Assembly: GCF_002159945.1 (NCBI RefSeq)
Contig: NZ_NFJQ01000011.1
Coordinates: 62,001-126,000, forward strand
Length of the DNA: 64,000 nucleotides
Reading direction: 5' to 3'
Source of the DNA: Cloacibacillus sp. An23
GTDB taxonomy: Bacteria > Synergistota > Synergistia > Synergistales > Synergistaceae
In this document: positions 30,231 through 41,624 of the stretch, in pieces
Layout: every line of letters starts with the position of its first letter
Numbering within the stretch: the first letter of the stretch is position 1
Position numbers and translations under genes: made by a program
The notes under the pieces: generated by a model
Databases searched by the model: none
Told to the model about the DNA's origin: nothing
What the model saw: only the letters and a program-made list of their open reading frames with translations

Positions 30231-32852
30231 ATGAAAAAGGATTATTTCGACGTTACCGGCATGAGCTGTGCGGCATGTTCCGCGCGCGTGGAAAAGAGCG
30301 TCGCGAAGCTTCCTGGTGTGAAGGAGGTTTCCGTGAATCTCCTGAAGAACAGTATGACTGTCGAGTACGACGAGAACGCGCTTAGCCCGGACGGAATCGT
30401 AGACGCCGTCGTGAAGGCAGGGTACGGAGCTTCGCTGCGCGCCGCCGGAGGGAAGGCCGCGAAGGCTGCTTCAAAATCCGCGCCCGCACCGGTGGACGCG
30501 GCGATGAAGGAGTACGAGGGGATGAAACGGCGGCTTGTCGCGTCGGCGGTTTTCGCCGCGCCGCTTTTCTATATTTCTATGGGGCACATGATGGGCTGGC
30601 CGCTCCCGGCTTTTTTCCACGGTGCGGAGAACGCTATGGTTTTCGCTCTGACGCTGTTTATTCTGACCGTCCCGATTTTGTTTATCAATTTCAAGTTTTT
30701 CCGCGTGGGTTTTGCGTCGCTCGCTCACGGGGCGCCGAATATGGATTCGCTTATCGCGCTCGGCGCCGGCGCGGCGCTCGTCTACGGTGTGTACGCGCTG
30801 TATAAGATAGCTTTCGCGCTCGGGCGCGGCGATTTCACGACGGCGTCGCATTTCTCGATGGATCTGTATTTCGAGTCGGCGGGAATGATTCTGACGCTGA
30901 TAACCCTCGGCAAGTTCTTCGAGGCGCGCGCTAAGGGGCGTACGTCGGACGCGGTGAACAAACTTATCAACCTTGCGCCCAAGACCGCCGTCGTCGTGCG
31001 CGGCGGCGAGGAGACGGAGATTCCCGCCGAAGAGGTGGAGAAGGGGGACGTCCTCGTCGTGCGCGCGGGGCAGGCGGTCCCGGCGGACGGCGTTCTGACG
31101 GAAGGGCACGCCGCCGTGGACGAGTCGGCCATCACCGGCGAGAGCATCCCGGTTGAGAAGCAGCCCGGCGACAAGCTGATAGGCGCGACGACTGTCAAGT
31201 CCGGCTACCTCAGGATGCGCGCGACGGAAGTCGGAGACGAGACGGCGCTGGCGCGTATCGTGAAGCTTGTGGATGAGGCGACGAGCTCCAAGGCTCCTAT
31301 CGCCAAGCTCGCGGATAAGGTGAGCGGCGTTTTCGTCCCAGCGGTCATCGCGGTCGCGCTGGTCACGGCCGCAGTGTGGCTCGCTCTGGGTTACGGCGTT
31401 GAGTTCGCGCTTTCGCGTGCAATCGCGGTGCTCGTGATTTCCTGCCCGTGCGCGCTCGGCCTTGCCACTCCGACGGCTATTATGGTTGGGACGGGACGCG
31501 GCGCCACGAACGGGATTCTTATAAAATCGGCGGAGGCGCTTGAAACGGCGCACGACATAAAGACCGTGGTGCTGGATAAGACCGGGACCATCACGAAGGG
31601 CGAGCCGGAGGTGACGGACGTGATCCACCGCTCCGATATGAGCGCGGATGAATTCATGACGTTCGCCGCGTCGCTTGAAAAGTATTCTGAGCATCCGCTT
31701 GGCGTCGCGATCGTTTCGAAAGCCGCCTGTGATAAACTGCCCTTAAAACCGGTCGAGGGTTTCAGACAGGAGCCGGGCAAGGGCGTCGGAGGTTATATAG
31801 AAGGAACTGAGTGGCGCGGCGGCAACAGAAAGCTGATGGAGGAGTACGGGCTGTACGGCGACAAGGAGCGCAAGCTTGAGCAAAAGCTTGCCGACGAAGG
31901 CAAGACGCCGCTCTTCTTCGTTTACGGCGGGAGATTCGCCGGGGTGATAGCGCTCGCCGACGTCGTGAAGCCGACGAGCCGCCGCGCGGTGGAAGAGCTT
32001 CACGCGATGGGGATAAGGGTCGTCATGCTGACTGGCGACAACGAGCGCACGGCTCGGGCCATACAGCGCGAGGTCGGAGCCGACGAGGTTATAGCCGAGG
32101 TGCTGCCGCAGGATAAGGAGAAGGAGGTGCGCCGCATCCAGGAGTCGGGTGTGAAGGCTGCGATGGTGGGCGACGGTATAAACGACGCTCCGGCGCTCGC
32201 GCGCGCCGACGTAGGCATAGCGATAGGCGCCGGCACGGACGTGGCGATCGAGTCCGCCGGCATCGTGCTCATGCGCAGCGACCTGCTGGACGCGGCGGGC
32301 GCGATACAGCTCGGCAGGGCGGTCATACGCAATATAAAAGAAAACCTGTTTTGGGCTCTCTTTTACAATACGCTGTGCATTCCGGTCGCGGCCGGAGTTT
32401 TTTATCCGTCGTTCGGCCTGAAGCTGAGCCCGATGATAGGCGCGCTCGCTATGAGTTTCAGCTCCGTCTTCGTCGTGTCGAACGCTTTGCGGCTGCGGCT
32501 GTTCAAGCCGAAGTTCCAAGCCGCCTCCGGGGACGGCGGAGAAGCGCGAAATTCCGCAAAAGAGTGCCGCGTCGAGGCGATAGCCGTAGAAGACGGCGCT
32601 GAAGTCAATAAAGAGACGAAGGGAGAAGATGCGAAAATGAAAAAGGTTCTGCATGTGGAGGGCATGATGTGCCAGATGTGCGTGAAGCACGTAACGCAGG
32701 CTCTGAAGAATGTGGCGGGCGTAGAGGACGTTGACGTATCTTTGGAGACAAAGACTGCAACGGTCACGTTGAGTACGGACGTTGACGGCTCGGTTCTCGC
32801 GAAGGCCGTCAAGGAGGCCGGATACGAAGTCACAGGCGTGGAGACGGAATGA
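30231..32852 (+). CDS. copA: Copper-exporting P1B-type ATPase CopA
   Basis: This 873-residue inner-membrane pump drives Cu(I) out of the cytoplasm. The order is: an N-terminal metal-binding domain with MSCAAC (about 10-15), eight membrane segments, the actuator TGES, the ion-site SCPCALGLATPTA, the phosphorylation motif DKTGT, GDGINDAPAL, and a second metal-binding domain at the C-terminus (about 805-873) with MMCQMC. Most CopA proteins carry such domains only at the N-terminus. A charged, low-complexity linker (about 765-802) precedes the last domain. It overlaps csoR by four bases. Confidence 0.96.
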   Translation: MKKDYFDVTGMSCAACSARVEKSVAKLPGVKEVSVNLLKNSMTVEYDENALSPDGIVDAVVKAGYGASLRAAGGKAAKAASKSAPAPVDAAMKEYEGMKRRLVASAVFAAPLFYISMGHMMGWPLPAFFHGAENAMVFALTLFILTVPILFINFKFFRVGFASLAHGAPNMDSLIALGAGAALVYGVYALYKIAFALGRGDFTTASHFSMDLYFESAGMILTLITLGKFFEARAKGRTSDAVNKLINLAPKTAVVVRGGEETEIPAEEVEKGDVLVVRAGQAVPADGVLTEGHAAVDESAITGESIPVEKQPGDKLIGATTVKSGYLRMRATEVGDETALARIVKLVDEATSSKAPIAKLADKVSGVFVPAVIAVALVTAAVWLALGYGVEFALSRAIAVLVISCPCALGLATPTAIMVGTGRGATNGILIKSAEALETAHDIKTVVLDKTGTITKGEPEVTDVIHRSDMSADEFMTFAASLEKYSEHPLGVAIVSKAACDKLPLKPVEGFRQEPGKGVGGYIEGTEWRGGNRKLMEEYGLYGDKERKLEQKLADEGKTPLFFVYGGRFAGVIALADVVKPTSRRAVEELHAMGIRVVMLTGDNERTARAIQREVGADEVIAEVLPQDKEKEVRRIQESGVKAAMVGDGINDAPALARADVGIAIGAGTDVAIESAGIVLMRSDLLDAAGAIQLGRAVIRNIKENLFWALFYNTLCIPVAAGVFYPSFGLKLSPMIGALAMSFSSVFVVSNALRLRLFKPKFQAASGDGGEARNSAKECRVEAIAVEDGAEVNKETKGEDAKMKKVLHVEGMMCQMCVKHVTQALKNVAGVEDVDVSLETKTATVTLSTDVDGSVLAKAVKEAGYEVTGVETE
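32637..32852 (+). other. Possible internal start giving a free CopZ-like chaperone
   Basis: An in-frame ATG at codon 803 of copA is preceded by AAGGGAG (32619-32625). It would give a 71-residue protein that begins MKKVLHVEGMMCQMC, which looks like a complete stand-alone copper chaperone with its own natural start. Spacing of 11 bases is a little long. Whether this start is used cannot be told from sequence. Confidence 0.3.
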
Positions 32853-33112
32853 AGGCCGACAAAGCCGAGGTAAGCCGCAAAATAAAGATAGCGCGCGGAC
32901 AGCTCGACGGTATTCTGCGAATGATAGAGGAGGACCGCTACTGCGTCGACATTTCGTATCAGCTTCTAGCGACGCAGGCCCTCCTTAAGCGCGCGAATCA
33001 GGATATATTGCAGGCGCATATCAGGCATTGCGTGAAGGAGGCGCTTCAGACAGACGAGCCGAATCCGAAGCTGGAAGAGGCTTTGACGCTGCTCGAAAAA
33101 ATGGCGCAGTAA
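32849..33112 (+). CDS. csoR: Copper-sensing transcriptional repressor CsoR
   Basis: This 87-residue all-helical regulator leaves DNA when it binds Cu(I). The copper ligands Cys32, His57 and Cys61 have the same spacing as Cys36-His61-Cys65 of M. tuberculosis CsoR. This separates it from nickel (RcnR), formaldehyde (FrmR) and persulfide (CstR) relatives. It starts in the ATGA overlap at the end of copA, and the likely operator lies at 30180-30196, so it controls its own operon. Confidence 0.95.
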   Translation: MKADKAEVSRKIKIARGQLDGILRMIEEDRYCVDISYQLLATQALLKRANQDILQAHIRHCVKEALQTDEPNPKLEEALTLLEKMAQ

Positions 33113-33164: not shown

Positions 33165-33206
33165 GCCGGCGCTCGGTTTCGTCGGCTTTTTATTATAAAT
33201 TTCCTG

Positions 33207-33235
33207 TTGACAACAAAGTTTTGCGGTGCTAGGAT
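33207..33235 (+). promoter_or_regulatory. Promoter of the aromatic operon
   Basis: TTGACA (33207-33212) and TAGGAT (33230-33235) are separated by exactly 17 bases. This is a near-consensus sigma-70 promoter. It lies about 45 bases after the csoR terminator and starts the leader described below. Confidence 0.88.
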
Positions 33236-33280
33236 TTTCACCGTCGGGTCAATCCCGTACAAAAGGAGAGTTTATTGATA

Positions 33281-33346
33281 ATGAAGCAGTTCGCAGCTTA
33301 CCAGTTTTATTTTGGATACTTTTACTTTTTTAGCCCCCAAAGCTGA
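33281..33346 (+). CDS. Phe/Tyr-rich attenuator leader peptide
   Basis: This 21-residue reading frame is preceded by AAAAGGAG and starts with ATG (33281); an in-frame TTG at 33275 is also possible and is better spaced. The peptide has Phe at positions 4, 9, 11, 14, 16, 17 and Tyr at 7, 10, 13, 15, so ten of 21 codons are aromatic. It stands between a strong promoter and a strong terminator in front of DAHP synthase. The expected role is that of pheL or trpL: ribosome stalling on scarce Phe- or Tyr-tRNA prevents terminator folding. Confidence 0.87.
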   Translation: MKQFAAYQFYFGYFYFFSPQS

Positions 33347-33410
33347 ATAAGTGAAGGTGTCTTTTGCTGCGAAACGCTTTTCTCAAGACAAACGAAATCA
33401 GAGAAATCAA

Positions 33411-33450
33411 AGCCTGCGGTGAATGAACAACTTCACCGCAGGCTTTTTTT
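33411..33450 (+). terminator. Attenuator terminator before aroF
   Basis: AGCCTGCGGTGAA (33411-33423) and TTCACCGCAGGCT (33432-33444) form a perfect 13-base stem with an 8-base loop. The T-run reaches 33450. It starts 64 bases after the leader-peptide stop and ends 44 bases before aroF. A possible competing helix is GCTTTTCTC (around 33376-33384) with GAGAAATCAAAGC (around 33401-33413), which would take the first bases of the 5' arm; it looks weak by eye. Confidence 0.9.
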
Positions 33451-33494
33451 ATTGGCCGCGCAAGGCGCGGAGATTTTTCAGGAGGGATATTGAA

Positions 33495-34511
33495 ATGATA
33501 ATCATAGTCAAACCGGAGGCAAAAGAGGAAAGGGTGCGCGACCTTGTGCAGTGGATAGAGGCGCAGGGGCTGCGCACGCATATCTCAAAGGGCGACTACA
33601 CGACAGTCATCGGCGTGATAGGCGACATCAGCAAGCTGGACGACGAGCTGCTTTCCGGCCTCGACATAGTGGAGAGCGTGAAGCACGTCTCCGAGCCGTT
33701 CAAGAACGCGAACAGGAAGTTCCACCCGCTCGATTCAGTGATAAAGGTCGGGAAGGATCAGATTCCCGTCGGGCACGGCAATTTCGCGATAATCGCCGGC
33801 CCGTGCTCGGTGGAGAGCGAGGAACAGATAATCTCCGTCGCGAAGAGCGTCAAGGCATCCGGCGCGACGATGCTCCGCGGAGGCGCCTTCAAGCCGCGCA
33901 CGTCGCCCTACGACTTCCAGGGGCTGAAGGCCGACGGCATCAACCTTCTGCTGGAAGCCAAAAAGGAGACCGGGCTGCCGATCGTCACCGAAATCATGAA
34001 CGCGAACCACCTTCCGCTTTTCGAGGACGTGGACGTGATACAGGTCGGCGCGCGCAATATGCAGAACTTCGAGCTTCTTAAGGAGCTCGGCAAGACGCGC
34101 AAGCCTATTCTCATAAAGCGCGGCCTCGCGAACACAATCAAGGAACTGCTGATGAGCGCGGAGTACATTATGTCGAACGGCAATGAGAACATAATACTCT
34201 GCGAGCGAGGCATACGCACCTTCGAGACGGCGACGCGCAACACTCTCGACCTGAGCGCCGTCTGCGTTCTGCACGAGCTTTCGCACCTTCCCGTGATAGT
34301 GGACCCGAGCCATGCTACCGGCGTCGCGCGCTATGTCAAGAGCATGTCGATGGCGGCTGCGGCCTGCGGAGCTGACGGCCTTATCATCGAGGTACACAAC
34401 GACCCGCAGCACGCGCTCTGCGACGGCGCGCAGTCGCTTCGCCCAGAGCAGTTCGACGACGTCGTGAAGGCCGTGCGCCGCGTGCGTGCGGCCGCTCTCG
34501 CGGAAGACTAG
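33495..34511 (+). CDS. aroF: 3-deoxy-7-phosphoheptulonate synthase (DAHP synthase, type I-beta with regulatory N-domain)
   Basis: This 338-residue enzyme condenses PEP and erythrose-4-phosphate, the first step of the shikimate pathway. Residues 1-75 form a ferredoxin/ACT-like regulatory domain like that of the Thermotoga enzyme, where it mediates feedback by Tyr and Phe. The catalytic barrel follows with AGPCSVES, RGGAFKPRTSPY, KRG and DPSHATG. GGAGGGA at 33481 precedes the ATG at 33495. Control is thus probably double: attenuation of the transcript and allostery of the enzyme. It is the first gene of an eight-gene operon. Confidence 0.96.
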   Translation: MIIIVKPEAKEERVRDLVQWIEAQGLRTHISKGDYTTVIGVIGDISKLDDELLSGLDIVESVKHVSEPFKNANRKFHPLDSVIKVGKDQIPVGHGNFAIIAGPCSVESEEQIISVAKSVKASGATMLRGGAFKPRTSPYDFQGLKADGINLLLEAKKETGLPIVTEIMNANHLPLFEDVDVIQVGARNMQNFELLKELGKTRKPILIKRGLANTIKELLMSAEYIMSNGNENIILCERGIRTFETATRNTLDLSAVCVLHELSHLPVIVDPSHATGVARYVKSMSMAAAACGADGLIIEVHNDPQHALCDGAQSLRPEQFDDVVKAVRRVRAAALAED

Positions 34512-34514
34512 ACC

Positions 34515-35363
34515 ATGCCGGGTAAAGAGCGGCTTACCGTAGGGATAACGGGGCTCGGGCTGATAGGCGGCTCATTCGCGCGCGCCTATGCGGCTGGCGG
34601 CGCGCGCGTGCTCGGCTGCGACGCCGACGCTGATACCATGAAAGCGGCGGCGGAAGCTGGAGCGATTTCTGGCGTGCTGACGCCGGAAAAAGCCAGGGAA
34701 TGCGATCTGCTGCTGATCGCATTGTATCCGGCCGCAGCGGTGCGGTATCTGACCGAGACCGCGCCTTATCTCAGCGGCTGCGGCCTCGTGATGGACTGCT
34801 GCGGCGTGAAGAGGGACGTATGCAGGGCCGGTTTCGCGCTTGCCGGCGAGCACGGCTTCGACTTTCTCGGCGGTCATCCGATGGCTGGGATACAATTTTC
34901 CGGTTTCGCAAACAGCAGGGCCGATATGTTCAGGGGCGCGTCCATGATAATTGTCCCGCCGGAAGGCGGGGACTACAGGCTTACGGAAAAGGCGGAGCGG
35001 CTGCTCGCGCCGGCGGGCTTCGGCAGGTTCACTATAACGACCGCCGAACACCACGACGAGATGATAGCCTTCACTTCGCAGATGTGCCACGTAGTCTCCA
35101 ACGCCTACGTCAAGAGCCCTCGCGCGCAGGAGCACGCCGGATATTCGGCCGGGAGCTACGCAGACCTGACACGAGTCGCGAAGCTCAATCCCTCTATGTG
35201 GACTGAGCTTTTTATAGACAACAGGGATTTTCTTATGAACGAGATAGACTTGATGATAAAACATTTGTCGGAATATCGCGAAGCGCTCGAAGCGTCTGAC
35301 GGGCGGCGTCTTGCATCGCTTCTCGCGAAGGGCGTCGAGTGCGAAGAGAGGGCCGGAAGATGA
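34515..35363 (+). CDS. tyrA: Prephenate dehydrogenase TyrA
   Basis: This 282-residue enzyme oxidatively decarboxylates prephenate to 4-hydroxyphenylpyruvate for tyrosine. It has the Rossmann loop GLGLIGGSFA, the GGHPMAG motif and the helical C-terminal dimer domain. It has neither a chorismate mutase nor an ACT domain. It begins two bases after aroF and overlaps aroB by four bases (ATGA). Confidence 0.93.
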   Translation: MPGKERLTVGITGLGLIGGSFARAYAAGGARVLGCDADADTMKAAAEAGAISGVLTPEKARECDLLLIALYPAAAVRYLTETAPYLSGCGLVMDCCGVKRDVCRAGFALAGEHGFDFLGGHPMAGIQFSGFANSRADMFRGASMIIVPPEGGDYRLTEKAERLLAPAGFGRFTITTAEHHDEMIAFTSQMCHVVSNAYVKSPRAQEHAGYSAGSYADLTRVAKLNPSMWTELFIDNRDFLMNEIDLMIKHLSEYREALEASDGRRLASLLAKGVECEERAGR

Positions 35364-36451
35364 AGGGGAGGACGCTGAGGGTCGCGCTCCCGGGCAGGGA
35401 GTACGACATAGAGATAAGGCGCGGAGCCCTAGACGCTCTGCCGTCGAAGTGCGCGGAGCTTATGCCGAAGGCGCGGCGCGTGTTCGTGGCGACGGATACT
35501 ACTGTCGGCGGAATTTACGGCGAGCGCGCCGTCGCCTCGCTTGAAAACGCGGGATACAAGGTGCGCCTGCACGCGGTCCCGGCCGGCGAGGAATCGAAGT
35601 CGCCGGAAATGCTGCGCGAGCTGTGGGAGGATATGATGTCCTTCGGCTTCACGCGGAGCGACGCCGTAGTCGCGCTCGGAGGCGGAGTGGTGGGCGACCT
35701 TGCCGGCTTCGCGGCGGCCACCGCGCTGCGCGGCGTGGATTTCATACAAGTTCCTACGACGCTGCTGGCGCAGGTCGATTCATCTGTCGGCGGCAAGGTC
35801 GGAATAGACCTGAAGGCCGGGAAGAACCTCGCCGGGGCGTTCTGGCAGCCGAAGGCAGTGCTGATAGATCCGGAGTGCCTCGAGACGCTGAACGATAAGA
35901 TTTTCTCAGACGGCATGGCGGAGGTAATAAAATACGGCTGCATCAGGGACGCGGGGCTTTTCGGCCGGCTCGCGGCCCTAGGCGGCAGGGCCGGCGTGAT
36001 GGATGAAATAGAAGAGATAATCTACACGTGCTGCGACATCAAGCGCGCGCTCGTCATGGAAGACGAGCGCGACACGGGAGCGCGCATGGTACTGAATTTC
36101 GGACATACGCTGGGGCACGCCTACGAACTCGCGGGAGGCTATAAAAAATGGACGCACGGCCAGGCCGTCGCGGCGGGCATGGTATCGGCGTCGCGCGTCG
36201 GAGCCGCGCTTGGAGTTACGCCGTGTGATATAGAAACACAAATACGTTCGATTTTAAAAGAGTATAAACTGCCCGAAGTTATAGAGTGCCCGCCTGAGAT
36301 CATGCGCGAGGCTGTGTCTGTGGACAAGAAATCCTCCGGCGCCGCCGTGAAGCTCATTCTGCTGAAGAAGCTCGGCGAAGCCGAAATCTTCCCGATAGAT
36401 CGCGAGCGCTTTCTATCTCTCGCCTCCGCGGCGCAGGGGGGCGCAGAATGA
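35360..36451 (+). CDS. aroB: 3-dehydroquinate synthase AroB
   Basis: This 363-residue NAD- and metal-dependent enzyme performs step two of the shikimate pathway. It shows GGGVVGDLAGF, QVPTTLLAQVDSSVGGK and the metal-binding NFGHTLGHAYE. The ATG at 35360 overlaps the tyrA stop; a start seven codons earlier has no advantage. The 3' end overlaps aroA by four bases. Confidence 0.96.
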   Translation: MKGRTLRVALPGREYDIEIRRGALDALPSKCAELMPKARRVFVATDTTVGGIYGERAVASLENAGYKVRLHAVPAGEESKSPEMLRELWEDMMSFGFTRSDAVVALGGGVVGDLAGFAAATALRGVDFIQVPTTLLAQVDSSVGGKVGIDLKAGKNLAGAFWQPKAVLIDPECLETLNDKIFSDGMAEVIKYGCIRDAGLFGRLAALGGRAGVMDEIEEIIYTCCDIKRALVMEDERDTGARMVLNFGHTLGHAYELAGGYKKWTHGQAVAAGMVSASRVGAALGVTPCDIETQIRSILKEYKLPEVIECPPEIMREAVSVDKKSSGAAVKLILLKKLGEAEIFPIDRERFLSLASAAQGGAE

Positions 36452-37683
36452 AGCTTAAAATAGCGCCGCGCTCGCTGTGCGGGCGGGTGACGCCGCCGCC
36501 GAGCAAGAGCGCCGCGCACAGGATGCTTATATGCGCCGCACTCGCGGACGGCCGTTCGGTCATATCGAACCTTACTTTTTCAGACGACATCAATGCTACG
36601 CTCAAATGCCTAGAGTGCATAGGTGCGGAATGGAAACACACGGACGAGGGGACTATCGAAGTGACAGGCACGGCCGGACGCGGGGGTGACGGCGGACGGA
36701 TGTTCGAATGCGGCGAAAGCGGCTCGACTCTGCGTTTCTTCATCCCGATAGCGCTCGCTCTCTACGGACGCGGACGCTTCACCGGAAGGGGCCGGCTTAT
36801 GAAACGCCCGCAGGGACCGTACTTCGACCTGTTCTTTGAAAAAGGTATATCGTTCTCTTACGACACGAAGTCGCTCGAAGTATCAGGCAGGCTTGAGCCG
36901 GGCGGATATTCGCTGCGCGGCGACGTGTCGAGTCAGTTTTTCAGCGGACTGCTCTTCGCCCTGCCGCTTTTGCCGGGAGATTCGTCTCTGCGCGCATCGA
37001 CTGCGCTCGAATCGGCTCCGTACGTCGAGATGACCGTCGATTCACAGTCTAAGGCCGGAATAGCGATAAAGGAAAAGGACGGCGGGTATTTCGCCGGCGG
37101 CGGGCAGCATTACATTCCTTTCAGCGCGTCGGTCGAGGCCGACTGGTCGCAGGCGGCGTTCTGGAACGCAGCGGATCTGCTCGGCTCGTCAGTCGAGCTT
37201 TGCGGCATGGACATGGATTCGGCTCAGGGCGACAGGGCGCACGGCCTGGCTATGGCGGAACGGCTGTCCGGCGACGGGCTTTCAGACATTGAATTCGACA
37301 TTTCCGACTGTCCCGACCTCCTGCCCCCGATGGCGGCAGCCGCGGCGGCGCGCGGACGCGGCGCGGTGACGGTGTTCCGCAACGCGGCGCGCCTGCGCAT
37401 GAAAGAGAGCGACAGGCTCGCGTCGGTGACGGCGGTCATAAACGCGCTTGGCGGCCGCGCCGTCGAGGAGGAGAGCGGCGTCGCGATATACGGCTCCGAT
37501 TCACTTGCCGGCGGCGCGGAGGTGTCATGCTTCGGCGACCACCGCATAGCGATGATGGCGGCGGTCGCAGCGACGAGATGCGAGAAGCCGGTCGTTCTCG
37601 ACGGCGCTGAGTGCGTGAACAAATCGTATCCGAGCTTCTGGGATGAGTACAAACGTCTCGGCGGCTCAATAGAGGAGATATAG
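36448..37683 (+). CDS. aroA: 3-phosphoshikimate 1-carboxyvinyltransferase AroA (EPSP synthase)
   Basis: This 411-residue enzyme joins PEP to shikimate-3-phosphate, step six. It has PPSKSAAHR near the N-terminus, the phosphate-binding GESGSTLRFFIPI, DWSQAAFW and the late KESDRL motif. It is slightly shorter than the 427 residues of E. coli AroA. The next start codon follows its stop without a gap. Confidence 0.96.
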   Translation: MKLKIAPRSLCGRVTPPPSKSAAHRMLICAALADGRSVISNLTFSDDINATLKCLECIGAEWKHTDEGTIEVTGTAGRGGDGGRMFECGESGSTLRFFIPIALALYGRGRFTGRGRLMKRPQGPYFDLFFEKGISFSYDTKSLEVSGRLEPGGYSLRGDVSSQFFSGLLFALPLLPGDSSLRASTALESAPYVEMTVDSQSKAGIAIKEKDGGYFAGGGQHYIPFSASVEADWSQAAFWNAADLLGSSVELCGMDMDSAQGDRAHGLAMAERLSGDGLSDIEFDISDCPDLLPPMAAAAAARGRGAVTVFRNAARLRMKESDRLASVTAVINALGGRAVEEESGVAIYGSDSLAGGAEVSCFGDHRIAMMAAVAATRCEKPVVLDGAECVNKSYPSFWDEYKRLGGSIEEI

Positions 37684-38778
37684 ATGAGCTCATATTTCGG
37701 TAAAGAGATACACGTAACTATATTCGGACAATCGCACGCGGAGTGCGTTGGAGTAACGATAGACGGACTGCCCGCGGGCGAGGCGGTGGACGAGGAGGCG
37801 CTGCGCGTTTTCATGGAACGCCGCGCGCCGGGACGCGGAGCCGAAACGACCGCGCGCCGCGAGGCCGACAGGGTCGAGATACTCTGCGGCGTGAACGAAG
37901 GAGTCACATGCGGAGCGCCGCTGGCAGCCGTCATAAGAAACGGCGACACCCGCTCCAAAGATTACGACAAGCTGCGCGACCTTCCGCGCCCAGGGCACGC
38001 CGACCTGACGGCGCAGATAAAATACGGAGGCTTCCAGGACGTACGCGGGGGAGGGCATTTCTCGGGACGGCTGACGGCTCCGCTCTGCATAGCTGGCGGG
38101 ATCTGCGCGCAGATATTGTCGCGGCGCGGCGTTGAGATAGGCGCTCACATACTCTCGATTGCCGGCATAGAGGACGCGCGCTTCGACCCTATGGGCGAAT
38201 CGAAAGAAGTCCTCGGCCGAGTCAAATCCGCGCAGTTTCCCACGCTCGACGGGGAAGCGGGGATGAGGATGCGCGACGCGATACTTAAAGCCAAAAGAGA
38301 GGGCGATTCCGTAGGCGGAGTGGTAGAATGCATCGTGACGGGGATGCCCGCAGGCGTCGGCTCGCCGATATTCGGCGGACTTGAGAGCAGGCTCGCGGCG
38401 GCGCTTTTCGCCATTCCGGCGGTAAAGGGCGTGGAGTTCGGCTCTGGCTTCGGCGCGGCGCTTATGCGCGGATCAGAGCACAACGACGAGATAGCGGCCG
38501 AAGACGGCAAAATAGTCACGCGGACGAACAACGCCGGGGGCATCCTCGGCGGCATAAGCGACGGAATGCCGGTGATATTCCGCGTCGCCTTCAAGCCTAC
38601 TGCTTCGATACTGAAAAAGCAGAAAACTGTCTCGCTTTCCAGGATGGAGCAGGAAGAGCTTCAAATCACCGGACGTCACGACCCGTGCGTCGTGACGCGC
38701 GCCGTCCCGGTAGTCGAGGCCGCCGCAGCCGTGGTAGCGCTGGACGCGCTGCTTGAACGCAACGCGGATAAATTATAA
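37684..38778 (+). CDS. aroC: Chorismate synthase AroC
   Basis: This 364-residue FMN-dependent enzyme makes chorismate from EPSP, step seven. It has the family signatures GQSHAECVGVTIDGLPAGE and GHADLTAQIKYGGFQDVRGG with the catalytic His, and a C-terminal RHDPCVVTRAVPVVEA. It starts directly after the aroA stop. A 31-base gap with a strong ribosome site leads to pheA. Confidence 0.97.
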   Translation: MSSYFGKEIHVTIFGQSHAECVGVTIDGLPAGEAVDEEALRVFMERRAPGRGAETTARREADRVEILCGVNEGVTCGAPLAAVIRNGDTRSKDYDKLRDLPRPGHADLTAQIKYGGFQDVRGGGHFSGRLTAPLCIAGGICAQILSRRGVEIGAHILSIAGIEDARFDPMGESKEVLGRVKSAQFPTLDGEAGMRMRDAILKAKREGDSVGGVVECIVTGMPAGVGSPIFGGLESRLAAALFAIPAVKGVEFGSGFGAALMRGSEHNDEIAAEDGKIVTRTNNAGGILGGISDGMPVIFRVAFKPTASILKKQKTVSLSRMEQEELQITGRHDPCVVTRAVPVVEAAAAVVALDALLERNADKL

Positions 38779-38809: not shown

Positions 38810-39961
38810 ATGTCAAAGAAACTGGAAGAACTGCGTGAGAAAATCGACGGAATCGACGAAAAGATAGTCAAGCTCTACCGTGAAAGAATGGGAGTGACGA
38901 AAGACATCGCCGCGTATAAGAAGGAAAAGGGCCTCCCAGTACTCGACGCTGGACGCGAGCGCGCCGTCCTCGCGAAGATCGGACAGCAGGCCGGAGACGA
39001 CCTCGCCGACTACGCGCAGTCCGTCTACCGCACAATCATGGCGACCACGCGCTCCTACCAGAATTTCTGCAACGGCGTGCCGTCGAGCACATACGAAAGC
39101 ATCCGCAAGACGCTCGACATGACGCCGAAGCTCTTTCCGCAGCGTCCGACAGTCGCCTGCCAAGGCATAGAGGGGGCGAACTCCCAGATAGCCTGCGACA
39201 GCCTCTTCAAGGCGCCTACGATCCTCTATTTCAACACTTTCGAACATGTCTTCAAAGCCGTTGAAAGCGGGATGTGCCAGTATGGAATACTGCCCATAGA
39301 AAACAGCACCGCAGGTTCCGTCAACGCGATATACGACCTTATGACGCGCCACAACTTCTACATAGTTCGCTCCGTCAGGCTGAAGGTCAGCCATAACCTG
39401 CTCGCGAAGCACGGAGTCAGGCTCGAGGACGTCCGCGAGGTGCTCTCGCACAGCCAGGCTCTGAGCCAGTGCGAAAACTTCCTAGCCGGACTGAAGAACG
39501 TCAAAGCTACGGTCGCCGAGAACACCGCAGTCGCTGCGCGCACGGTAGCCGAATCCGACCGCTCCGACCTCGCGGCGCTGTCGTCGCGCTTCTGCGCCGA
39601 GGAGTACGGCCTCAACGTGCTGAAGGCCAACGTGCAGGATCAGGATAACAATTACACGCGCTTCATCTGCATCTCAAAAAATCTTGAAGTATATCCCGGC
39701 GCTGACCGCACGTCGCTCATGATGACACTGCCGCACAAGCCAGGATCGCTCTACAACGTGCTGTCGAAGTTCTACGCGCTCGGCATCAACCTCCGCAAAC
39801 TCGAAAGCCGCCCGCTTCCAGACCGCGAGTCCGAATTCATGTTCTATTTCGACCTTGAATGCTCGGTCTACGCGCCCGAGATGGAGAAGCTTTTCCGCGA
39901 CCTCGAGAGCGAGAACGAGTATCTGCGCTATCTCGGCACCTATAACGAGGTCCTCTGCTGA
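38810..39961 (+). CDS. pheA: Bifunctional chorismate mutase / prephenate dehydratase (P-protein)
   Basis: The 383 residues contain an AroQ-type chorismate mutase (about 1-90), a prephenate dehydratase (about 100-285, with PIENSTAGSVN and the catalytic NYTRF motif) and a C-terminal ACT domain (about 295-383) with an ESRP motif that binds Phe for feedback. AAGGAGG precedes the ATG. Since TyrA here lacks a mutase domain, this protein probably supplies prephenate to both branches. Its stop shares one base with the next start (TGATG). Confidence 0.96.
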   Translation: MSKKLEELREKIDGIDEKIVKLYRERMGVTKDIAAYKKEKGLPVLDAGRERAVLAKIGQQAGDDLADYAQSVYRTIMATTRSYQNFCNGVPSSTYESIRKTLDMTPKLFPQRPTVACQGIEGANSQIACDSLFKAPTILYFNTFEHVFKAVESGMCQYGILPIENSTAGSVNAIYDLMTRHNFYIVRSVRLKVSHNLLAKHGVRLEDVREVLSHSQALSQCENFLAGLKNVKATVAENTAVAARTVAESDRSDLAALSSRFCAEEYGLNVLKANVQDQDNNYTRFICISKNLEVYPGADRTSLMMTLPHKPGSLYNVLSKFYALGINLRKLESRPLPDRESEFMFYFDLECSVYAPEMEKLFRDLESENEYLRYLGTYNEVLC

Positions 39962-41190
39962 TGGCGGAAGCCGGATACGGCCTTATCGGGGAGAAGCTCG
40001 GACACAGCTTTTCCCCTTATATCCACGGCGAGCTGGGGAACTACGATTACCGCCTGATAGAGCTTAAGCGCGGCGAACTCGCCGGTTTCCTCAAACGCGG
40101 CGCGTTCAAGGGGCTGAACGTCACCGTCCCGTACAAAAAGGATGTCATGCCGTACTGCGCCTGGCTCTCCCCTGAGGCCGCGCGCATCGGAAGCGTGAAC
40201 ACGATAGTTAACACTGGCGGGCTGCTGCGCGGCTACAATACGGACTACTACGGATTCGTCCACATGCTGCGCACTGCGGGAATCGACGTCAAGGACAAGA
40301 AGACGCTCGTACTCGGCAGCGGCGGCGCGTCGCTCACTGTCAGGACGGCGCTCGGCGACCTCGGCGCGCGAAGCGTGACGGTAGTCTCACGCGGCGGCGA
40401 AGACAATTACGGCAATCTCGAGCGCCACGCCGGCGCCCGGGTTATAGTGAACACGACTCCTGTCGGCATGTACCCGAATGTGGAGGCGGCTCCGCTTTCG
40501 CTCGACCCGTTCCCGCACCTTGAGGCAGTCGCCGACATCATATACAATCCGTCGAAGACGCGGCTTCTGCTCGACGCGGAGAAGCGCGGACTGTGCTTCG
40601 CGAACGGACTGGCTATGCTCGTCGCTCAGGCGAAGGCGGCGGCGGAGCTTTTTCTCGGACGAAGCATACCGGACGAAAAAGTTGACGAGATCACTTCTCT
40701 GATAGAGAAGCGAACTAAGAACATTCTGCTGATAGGAATGCCTGGCTGCGGCAAGACGACGGTGGGGAAGCTGCTCGCACGCGCCCTCGGGCGCGGCTTC
40801 GCCGACACTGACGAGCTGATAGTAAAGGAGAGCGGGCGCGCCATACCCGATATATTCGCGTCTGACGGCGAAGAGGCCTTCCGCGAACTCGAACACTCTG
40901 TCATAGCCCGCGAGGCCAAGAAGTCCTCGCTCGTTATAGCGACAGGCGGCGGCTCCGTGCTTCGTGAAGACAACCGCGACGCGATGCGTCAGAATTCCTT
41001 CATCGTATATATCCGCCGCGACATAGGTGAACTTCCCTCGGCGGGCCGGCCGGTCTCTCAATCGACTCCGATCGAGGAGCTGTACGGCAGACGCGCGCCG
41101 ATATACGAAGCGCTGGCCGACGCCGCCGTAGACAATGAGACGAGCGCTCAGGCGGCCGCCGGCGAAATCATAAGGAGGCTCGGATTATGA
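39961..41190 (+). CDS. aroEK: Fused shikimate dehydrogenase / shikimate kinase
   Basis: The 409 residues join two pathway steps in one chain. Residues 1 to about 245 are AroE, with the shikimate site SFSPYIHGEL, the NVTVPYK motif, NTDYYGF, and the NADPH loop LGSGGASL. From about residue 255 it is shikimate kinase, with Walker A GMPGCGKTTVGK, the DTDELI motif and ATGGGSV. Both active sites look intact. The order of the fusion matches consecutive reactions: dehydroshikimate to shikimate to shikimate-3-phosphate. Confidence 0.95.
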   Translation: MAEAGYGLIGEKLGHSFSPYIHGELGNYDYRLIELKRGELAGFLKRGAFKGLNVTVPYKKDVMPYCAWLSPEAARIGSVNTIVNTGGLLRGYNTDYYGFVHMLRTAGIDVKDKKTLVLGSGGASLTVRTALGDLGARSVTVVSRGGEDNYGNLERHAGARVIVNTTPVGMYPNVEAAPLSLDPFPHLEAVADIIYNPSKTRLLLDAEKRGLCFANGLAMLVAQAKAAAELFLGRSIPDEKVDEITSLIEKRTKNILLIGMPGCGKTTVGKLLARALGRGFADTDELIVKESGRAIPDIFASDGEEAFRELEHSVIAREAKKSSLVIATGGGSVLREDNRDAMRQNSFIVYIRRDIGELPSAGRPVSQSTPIEELYGRRAPIYEALADAAVDNETSAQAAAGEIIRRLGL

Positions 41191-41624
41191 GAATACTCGT
41201 TGTAAACGGGCCGAACATCAACATGCTCGGCATAAGGGAGCCCGACATTTACGGCAAAAATACCTTCGCCGACCTCGAGCGGTTCATCCGTGAGAGCGCC
41301 GCAGAGTTCGGCGTCGAAGCGGAGCTCTTCCAGTCGAACCACGAGGGCGCGATAGTCGATAAGATACAGGCGGCCTTCGGCAAAACGGACGGAATCGTCA
41401 TCAATCCGGCCGCCTATACGCACACGAGCGTGGCGATACTCGACGCGCTCAAGGCCGTCGCTCTTCCTGCGGTCGAAGTGCATATATCGGACGTAGACTC
41501 GCGCGAGCCGTTCCGCCAAATATCGTACGCCGGCATGGCATGCGAGAAAAGATTCAGCGGCATGGGGTTTGAGGGCTACCGCGCCGCGATAAAATATCTT
41601 GCGGAGAGACACGGCGGGAAATAA
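41187..41624 (+). CDS. aroQ: Type II 3-dehydroquinate dehydratase AroQ
   Basis: This 145-residue enzyme forms dodecamers and dehydrates 3-dehydroquinate, step three. It has NGPNINMLGIREPDIYG at the start with the active-site Tyr, INPAAYTHTS, and VHISDVDSREPFR. It overlaps aroEK by four bases. With it, all seven chorismate steps are encoded in one operon. Its stop codon lies in the loop of the terminator. Confidence 0.97.
   Translation: MRILVVNGPNINMLGIREPDIYGKNTFADLERFIRESAAEFGVEAELFQSNHEGAIVDKIQAAFGKTDGIVINPAAYTHTSVAILDALKAVALPAVEVHISDVDSREPFRQISYAGMACEKRFSGMGFEGYRAAIKYLAERHGGK

Follow-up and report, generated by a model that had tools for sequence, protein, structure and literature searches.

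A predicted Phe/Tyr leader-peptide attenuator upstream of the aromatic operon of Cloacibacillus sp. An23, and related elements before aroF in Clostridia

How might an operon that carries the complete path from DAHP through chorismate to the precursors of both Phe and Tyr be adjusted to the supply of these two amino acids? The locus that raises this question lies in a stretch of 64,000 nucleotides of Cloacibacillus sp. An23 (contig NZ_NFJQ01000011.1, positions 62,001 to 126,000 of the forward strand), hereafter the window, for which a preliminary description had proposed ribosome-mediated attenuation through a leader rich in Phe and Tyr codons. The completeness of the operon behind the leader, from aroF through aroQ, was borne out by Pfam assignments of the following genes:

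33495..34511, + strand: aroF, DAHP synthase with a ferredoxin-like domain (PF00793, PF18152), predicted to be the first regulated gene
34515..35363, + strand: tyrA, prephenate dehydrogenase (Pfam)
35366..36451, + strand: aroB, 3-dehydroquinate synthase (Pfam; start picked by eye)
36448..37683, + strand: aroA, EPSP synthase (Pfam)
37684..38778, + strand: aroC, chorismate synthase (Pfam)
38813..39961, + strand: pheA, chorismate mutase-prephenate dehydratase (CM-PDT) (Pfam)
39961..41190, + strand: aroE-aroK fusion, shikimate dehydrogenase and shikimate kinase in one frame (Pfam)
41187..41624, + strand: aroQ, type II dehydroquinase, the last gene, with rplU next (Pfam)

For aroF, the mechanically derived ORF start at 33423 was replaced by 33495. 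Upstream of the promoter, at 30231-33112, a gene for a copper-type P-type ATPase (copA) with an extra C-terminal HMA-like domain, identified by eye, overlaps a gene for a CsoR/RcnR-type metal-sensing repressor (PF02583).

The elements that precede aroF, including the strands of the alternative RNA helices, are:

33207..33235, + strand: sigma-70-type promoter, TTGACA-17-TAGGAT, with TG preceding the -10 element, predicted from a 10/12 consensus match
33263..33268, + strand: ribosome-binding site of the leader, AAGGAG, read from the sequence
33281..33346, + strand: leader peptide MKQFAAYQFYFGYFYFFSPQS, 21 codons with RNA region 1 within; Phe/Tyr richness kept in relatives
33290..33297, + strand: outer strand of region 1, UUCGCAGC (codons Phe-Ala-Ala), partner 33366-33373; cognate-partner test of region 1 before the Phe/Tyr run against outer region 2, z -10.5
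33314..33334, + strand: inner strand of region 1, the Phe/Tyr codon run, partner 33342-33362 (RNAalifold helix)
33342..33384, + strand: region 2, the 3' strand of the 1:2 hairpin and the 5' strand of the antiterminator, with the core UAARAGUGAUUUUGCUGC (motif and folds)
33363..33423, + strand: antiterminator (2:3), -12.6 kcal/mol (fold predictions and cognate-partner test)
33409..33450, + strand: intrinsic terminator (3:4), the attenuator, with a 15 bp stem and a T run

Both the promoter and the 21-codon frame, in which six codons are Phe and four are Tyr, had been claimed in the preliminary description, and both were recovered here. The frame runs from the ATG at 33281 to the TGA ending at 33346, and an AGGAG-like site lies 5' of the leader in most relatives. 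An in-frame TTG at 33275, which is better spaced from the AAGGAG than the ATG, was rejected as the leader start because in the sister genome L082 the ATG alone stays in frame. The terminator that had been described ahead of DAHP synthase is present, with a perfect stem and a T run, and its stem is longer than claimed: 15 perfect pairs (33409-33423 with 33432-33446) instead of 13, followed by the T run up to 33450. Between the attenuator and the aroF ribosome-binding site there is a second GC-rich hairpin, CCGCGCAAGGCGCGG, at 33456-33470 of the window, and L082 has a similar sequence.

The whole leader folds far more stably than shuffled sequences (z -7.8), into a long 1:2 hairpin plus the terminator. 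Region 2 pairs with the leader codons (1:2) and also with region 3, so that three mutually exclusive helices result, as in trpL and pheL. In the absence of the 5' part, and before region 4 has been synthesized, 33401-33423 is predicted to pair with 33363-33371 and 33376-33384, through the helices 33363-33371 with 33415-33423, 33376-33380 with 33409-33413, and 33381-33384 with 33401-33404. This antiterminator occupies nearly all of the 5' arm of the terminator. The helix suggested earlier as a candidate antiterminator (33376-33384 with 33401-33413) corresponds to its inner part; the predicted structure is longer, as it adds 33363-33371. Folding with and without the 5' part of the leader masked, which had been proposed as a check, yielded two exclusive structures, namely 1:2 with 3:4 when unmasked and 2:3 when masked.

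The effect of a ribosome was modeled by placing one at each codon and calculating the partition function at equilibrium. Without a ribosome, the probability of the 2:3 helix was 0.00, which suggests, within this model, that termination would be the default state. With a ribosome at any of the first five aromatic codons (Phe4, Tyr7, Phe9, Tyr10 or Phe11), this probability rose to 0.62-0.92. For codons 12-17, the 2:3 helix was favoured only if the upstream RNA was barred from re-pairing behind the ribosome.

Homologues of aroF were gathered from genome contigs and from the family and phylum of the window, and the helices were evaluated by a partner-swap test, in which pairing between cognate partners was compared to that between foreign partners across 53 deduplicated loci. 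Cognate partners paired better for 1:2 (z -11.2), 2:3 (z -3.1, p 0.001) and 3:4 (z -24), whereas the control pairings 2:4 (p 0.31) and 1:3 (p 0.15) were unsupported across the same 53 loci. When whole spacers were used in a duplex test, the 2:3 signal was weak (p 0.03), and it became clear once the test was restricted to the conserved core of region 2. That core, UAARAGUGAUUUUGCUGC, is common to the relatives and was found by a motif search blind to structure; a first motif search had returned the Phe/Tyr codon run alone. In an alignment of 33 sequences, 13 of the 15 terminator pairs show double changes, and RNAalifold identified the inner 1:2 helix as the Phe/Tyr codons paired to a GUAAAA-like strand. 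The antiterminator in this alignment is 75.6% paired, compared to 71.4% for shuffled and 25-57% for slid controls, and its pairing exceeds that of all 500 shuffles; the covariation of 2:3 is modest because the sequence of the region is conserved. The leader and stems of L082 differ from those of the window by silent changes, one Tyr-to-Phe replacement, a TGA to TAA stop codon change and loop or pair-keeping changes, and by nothing else. Conservation in related genomes, on which the preliminary description had staked its proposal, is thus found for the leader frame, both types of aromatic codons and the stems.

A Phe/Tyr leader followed by a terminator is present upstream of 49 of the 79 homologous aroF genes with enough sequence. 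The same arrangement occurs in none of 790 Markov-resampled upstream regions and at none of the 411 starts of other ORFs in these loci; in about a third of the aroF homologues, no leader could be detected. A covariance model of the element (R1), the search with which was the sole genome-wide control, has exactly one match in the genome of the window. Among 188 genomes of the phylum, 16 have a match, 13 of them before aroF, and all carriers of the gene belong to one order; inspection by eye revealed leaders in front of more divergent aroF genes in other families as well. A weak match in another genome, with neither leader nor operon, was discarded as a false positive. The element is not peculiar to the lineage of the window but belongs to a class common in Clostridia, with many carriers among Clostridia and relatives from gut and environmental sources: in an even sample of Clostridia, 44 of 391 genomes match R1. 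Of the best 29 clostridial loci that were read, with genes named by eye from protein starts, 28 have the element directly before aroF (mostly with tyrA next) or before tyrA itself, and in the remaining one it stands in front of a chorismate-mutase-type gene that has aroB next. Among the carriers known by name are Sporobacter termitidis, Angelakisella massiliensis, Emergencia and Aminicella. In a quick aroF tree, the phylum of the window is scattered among Clostridia; at least five changes are required by well supported branches, and the gene of the window adjoins the Clostridia-labelled MAGs L001 and L002. We infer that aroF and its attenuator have probably been transferred together repeatedly, within the limits set by MAG binning and a quick tree.

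At least two Phe and at least two Tyr codons occur in 74 of 76 leaders, which suggests that dual sensing is conserved; a Trp codon is present in ten of the 76. Leaders of a related kind were seen before other genes. A Trp/Phe/Tyr leader, VWFVYYYYFYFTW, and a terminator precede aroE-aroD at two loci from a different family of the phylum (L140 and L141, minus strand, about 1500-1680). A similar aromatic leader with a terminator (L139, minus strand, about 1500-1670) stands before a gene for a sodium:solute symporter (PF00474), which may carry aromatic amino acids, and a Phe/Tyr leader, MFKFRFVFAYGFTYYFFRSCNSHLCCN, with a terminator (L191, 1501-1645) stands before the genes of an ABC transporter that, by eye, resembles the TrpXYZ type in its binding protein and permease. 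In Sporobacter termitidis, the second R1 match of the genome (L149, 1484-1672) contains an Ile/Leu/Val-rich leader set in a similar RNA frame, with ilvB (acetolactate synthase) at 1728, and judging by its sequence is a possible codon-swapped attenuator. In the genome of the window itself, neither a leader nor a T-box match was found in the 500 bases read at ilvB. There is about an even chance that these elements form an undescribed class of attenuators, built on a shared RNA frame with interchangeable sensor codons, that has spread with aroF among Clostridia and other phyla. Such a class would read Phe/Tyr before aroF-tyrA and before an ABC transporter of the aromatic type, whereas the codons would be Trp/Phe/Tyr before aroE-aroD and Ile/Leu/Val before ilvB.

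The element in the window is very probably a ribosome-mediated transcription attenuator that senses the charging of tRNA-Phe and tRNA-Tyr. If both tRNAs are charged, the ribosome would complete the leader and depart, so that region 1 joins region 2; region 3 would then be free for region 4, and RNA polymerase would halt at 33450. If Phe or Tyr is short, a ribosome stalled on a leader codon would cover region 1, and region 2 would join region 3 ahead of the synthesis of region 4, allowing the polymerase to continue into aroF and the remaining operon. If the leader is not translated at all, 1:2 would form and termination would follow by default. It should be noted that, in this short version of the leader, a ribosome at the stop codon would by itself leave 33363-33371 uncovered, so that termination in replete cells would need release of the ribosome and refolding.

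Other readings of the same parts have to be weighed against attenuation by uncharged-tRNA stalling. A peptide rich in Phe and Tyr could itself bind free Phe or Tyr and arrest the ribosome, as in tnaC, and the recurrence of FAA-like residues near leader starts fits such a role; yet the recurrent Phe-Ala-Ala codons are accounted for by the outer 1:2 helix, L082 has Phe in place of Tyr, and the peptides vary freely apart from their Phe/Tyr content, which fits codon reading better than an arrest peptide. This makes an arrest peptide very improbable. We assign an equally small likelihood to a riboswitch or protein-binding site that senses Phe, Tyr or a shikimate intermediate independently of the leader, with the Phe/Tyr frame incidental. 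The strong RNA structure would suit it, but Phe/Tyr enrichment kept in 74 of 76 leaders would not, and neither would the lack of an Rfam riboswitch match or codons that appear to track the regulated pathway, as with Ile/Leu/Val before ilvB in a similar RNA frame.

Least probable of all is that the hairpin 33409-33446 is merely a constitutive terminator, or the 3' end of the upstream transcript, preceded by a chance ORF. The hairpin is indeed a strong, bidirectional terminator; however, copA-csoR has a terminator-like hairpin of its own (33165-33186), the promoter sits in between, and the combination of leader and terminator is found again ahead of aroF in dozens of species, but not ahead of other genes.

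The mechanism of the attenuator is of an already known kind. The defining traits of trpL- and pheL-type attenuators are all found here: (i) a short leader ORF with a ribosome-binding site, to judge from sequence of a translated type, placed after the promoter and upstream of the operon; (ii) a leader rich in codons for the end products of the operon (10 of 21 being Phe or Tyr); (iii) an intrinsic terminator 5' of the first structural gene; and (iv) an antiterminator exclusive of both 1:2 and the terminator. The element shares with E. coli pheL and trpL the cognate-codon leader ORF, the 1:2/2:3/3:4 helices and the position of the terminator before biosynthetic genes. It differs in that its codons are mixed Phe and Tyr and there is no covariance-model homology: the match to the Rfam family Phe_leader (RF01859) is 18.7 bits, compared to a gathering threshold of 55. 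Moreover, E. coli pheL controls pheA alone, whereas here control of the whole chorismate trunk and both branches is predicted. Neither the window nor 20 related loci gave a match to any Rfam family that reached threshold, barring an unrelated lysine riboswitch in the locus of one relative; in particular, the T-box family (RF00230) has no match in the window before aroF. Multi-amino-acid leader attenuators are known from the Ile/Leu/Val uORF of Corynebacterium ilvB-II (PMC11109978, PMC10272879), which concerns other amino acids and another lineage. According to a 2010 report (PMC2965389), no regular leader peptides had been known beyond Proteobacteria and Actinobacteria until its hisS case.

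Two earlier surveys bear on the claim of the preliminary description that no case was described for this lineage. The legend of Fig. 6b in PMC6429828, a study of five genomes including Clostridium novyi and the Synergistetes member Thermovirga lienii, mentions two uORFs with Phe and Tyr codons that precede genes of the shikimate pathway and, as far as a figure legend allows comparison, may belong to the same class. The uORFC-13-1 motif (PMC8632094), with 24 sequences from Acholeplasma and environmental DNA only, also combines a uORF containing Phe codons with a terminator before aroF, and attenuation was proposed for it; by its description, it requires at least one Phe codon, and that description includes neither Tyr codons nor an antiterminator. 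Given these Phe/Tyr or Phe uORF candidates, the idea is not new and the claim has to be qualified. The class, which has no counterpart in Rfam, may overlap with those uORFs; its structure, its spread and the class as such nevertheless appear undescribed.

T-box leaders likewise sense tRNA charging, but by direct tRNA binding without translation, and one serves trpE in the same genome. The T-box before this trpE (contig C2, position 39789) lies at C2:39404-39642, and its specifier, according to the alignment, is UGG (Trp); in all, seven T-box matches occur in the genome outside the window. Phe, Tyr and the trunk would thus be read by a leader peptide and Trp by a T-box, i.e., by two sensors of tRNA charging in one pathway.

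The element offers an explanation of the way in which the supply of aromatic amino acids is probably adjusted in a large set of gut and anaerobic bacteria, whose lineages would be expected to use T-boxes and not leader peptides. Through one leader that reads two end products, the shared trunk and both branches would come under control, with Trp left to a T-box of the same genome. The class provides a covariance model as well as a defined test by mutation, and it is a natural set in which to study the passage of attenuators from genome to genome and their switch from one sensed amino acid to another.
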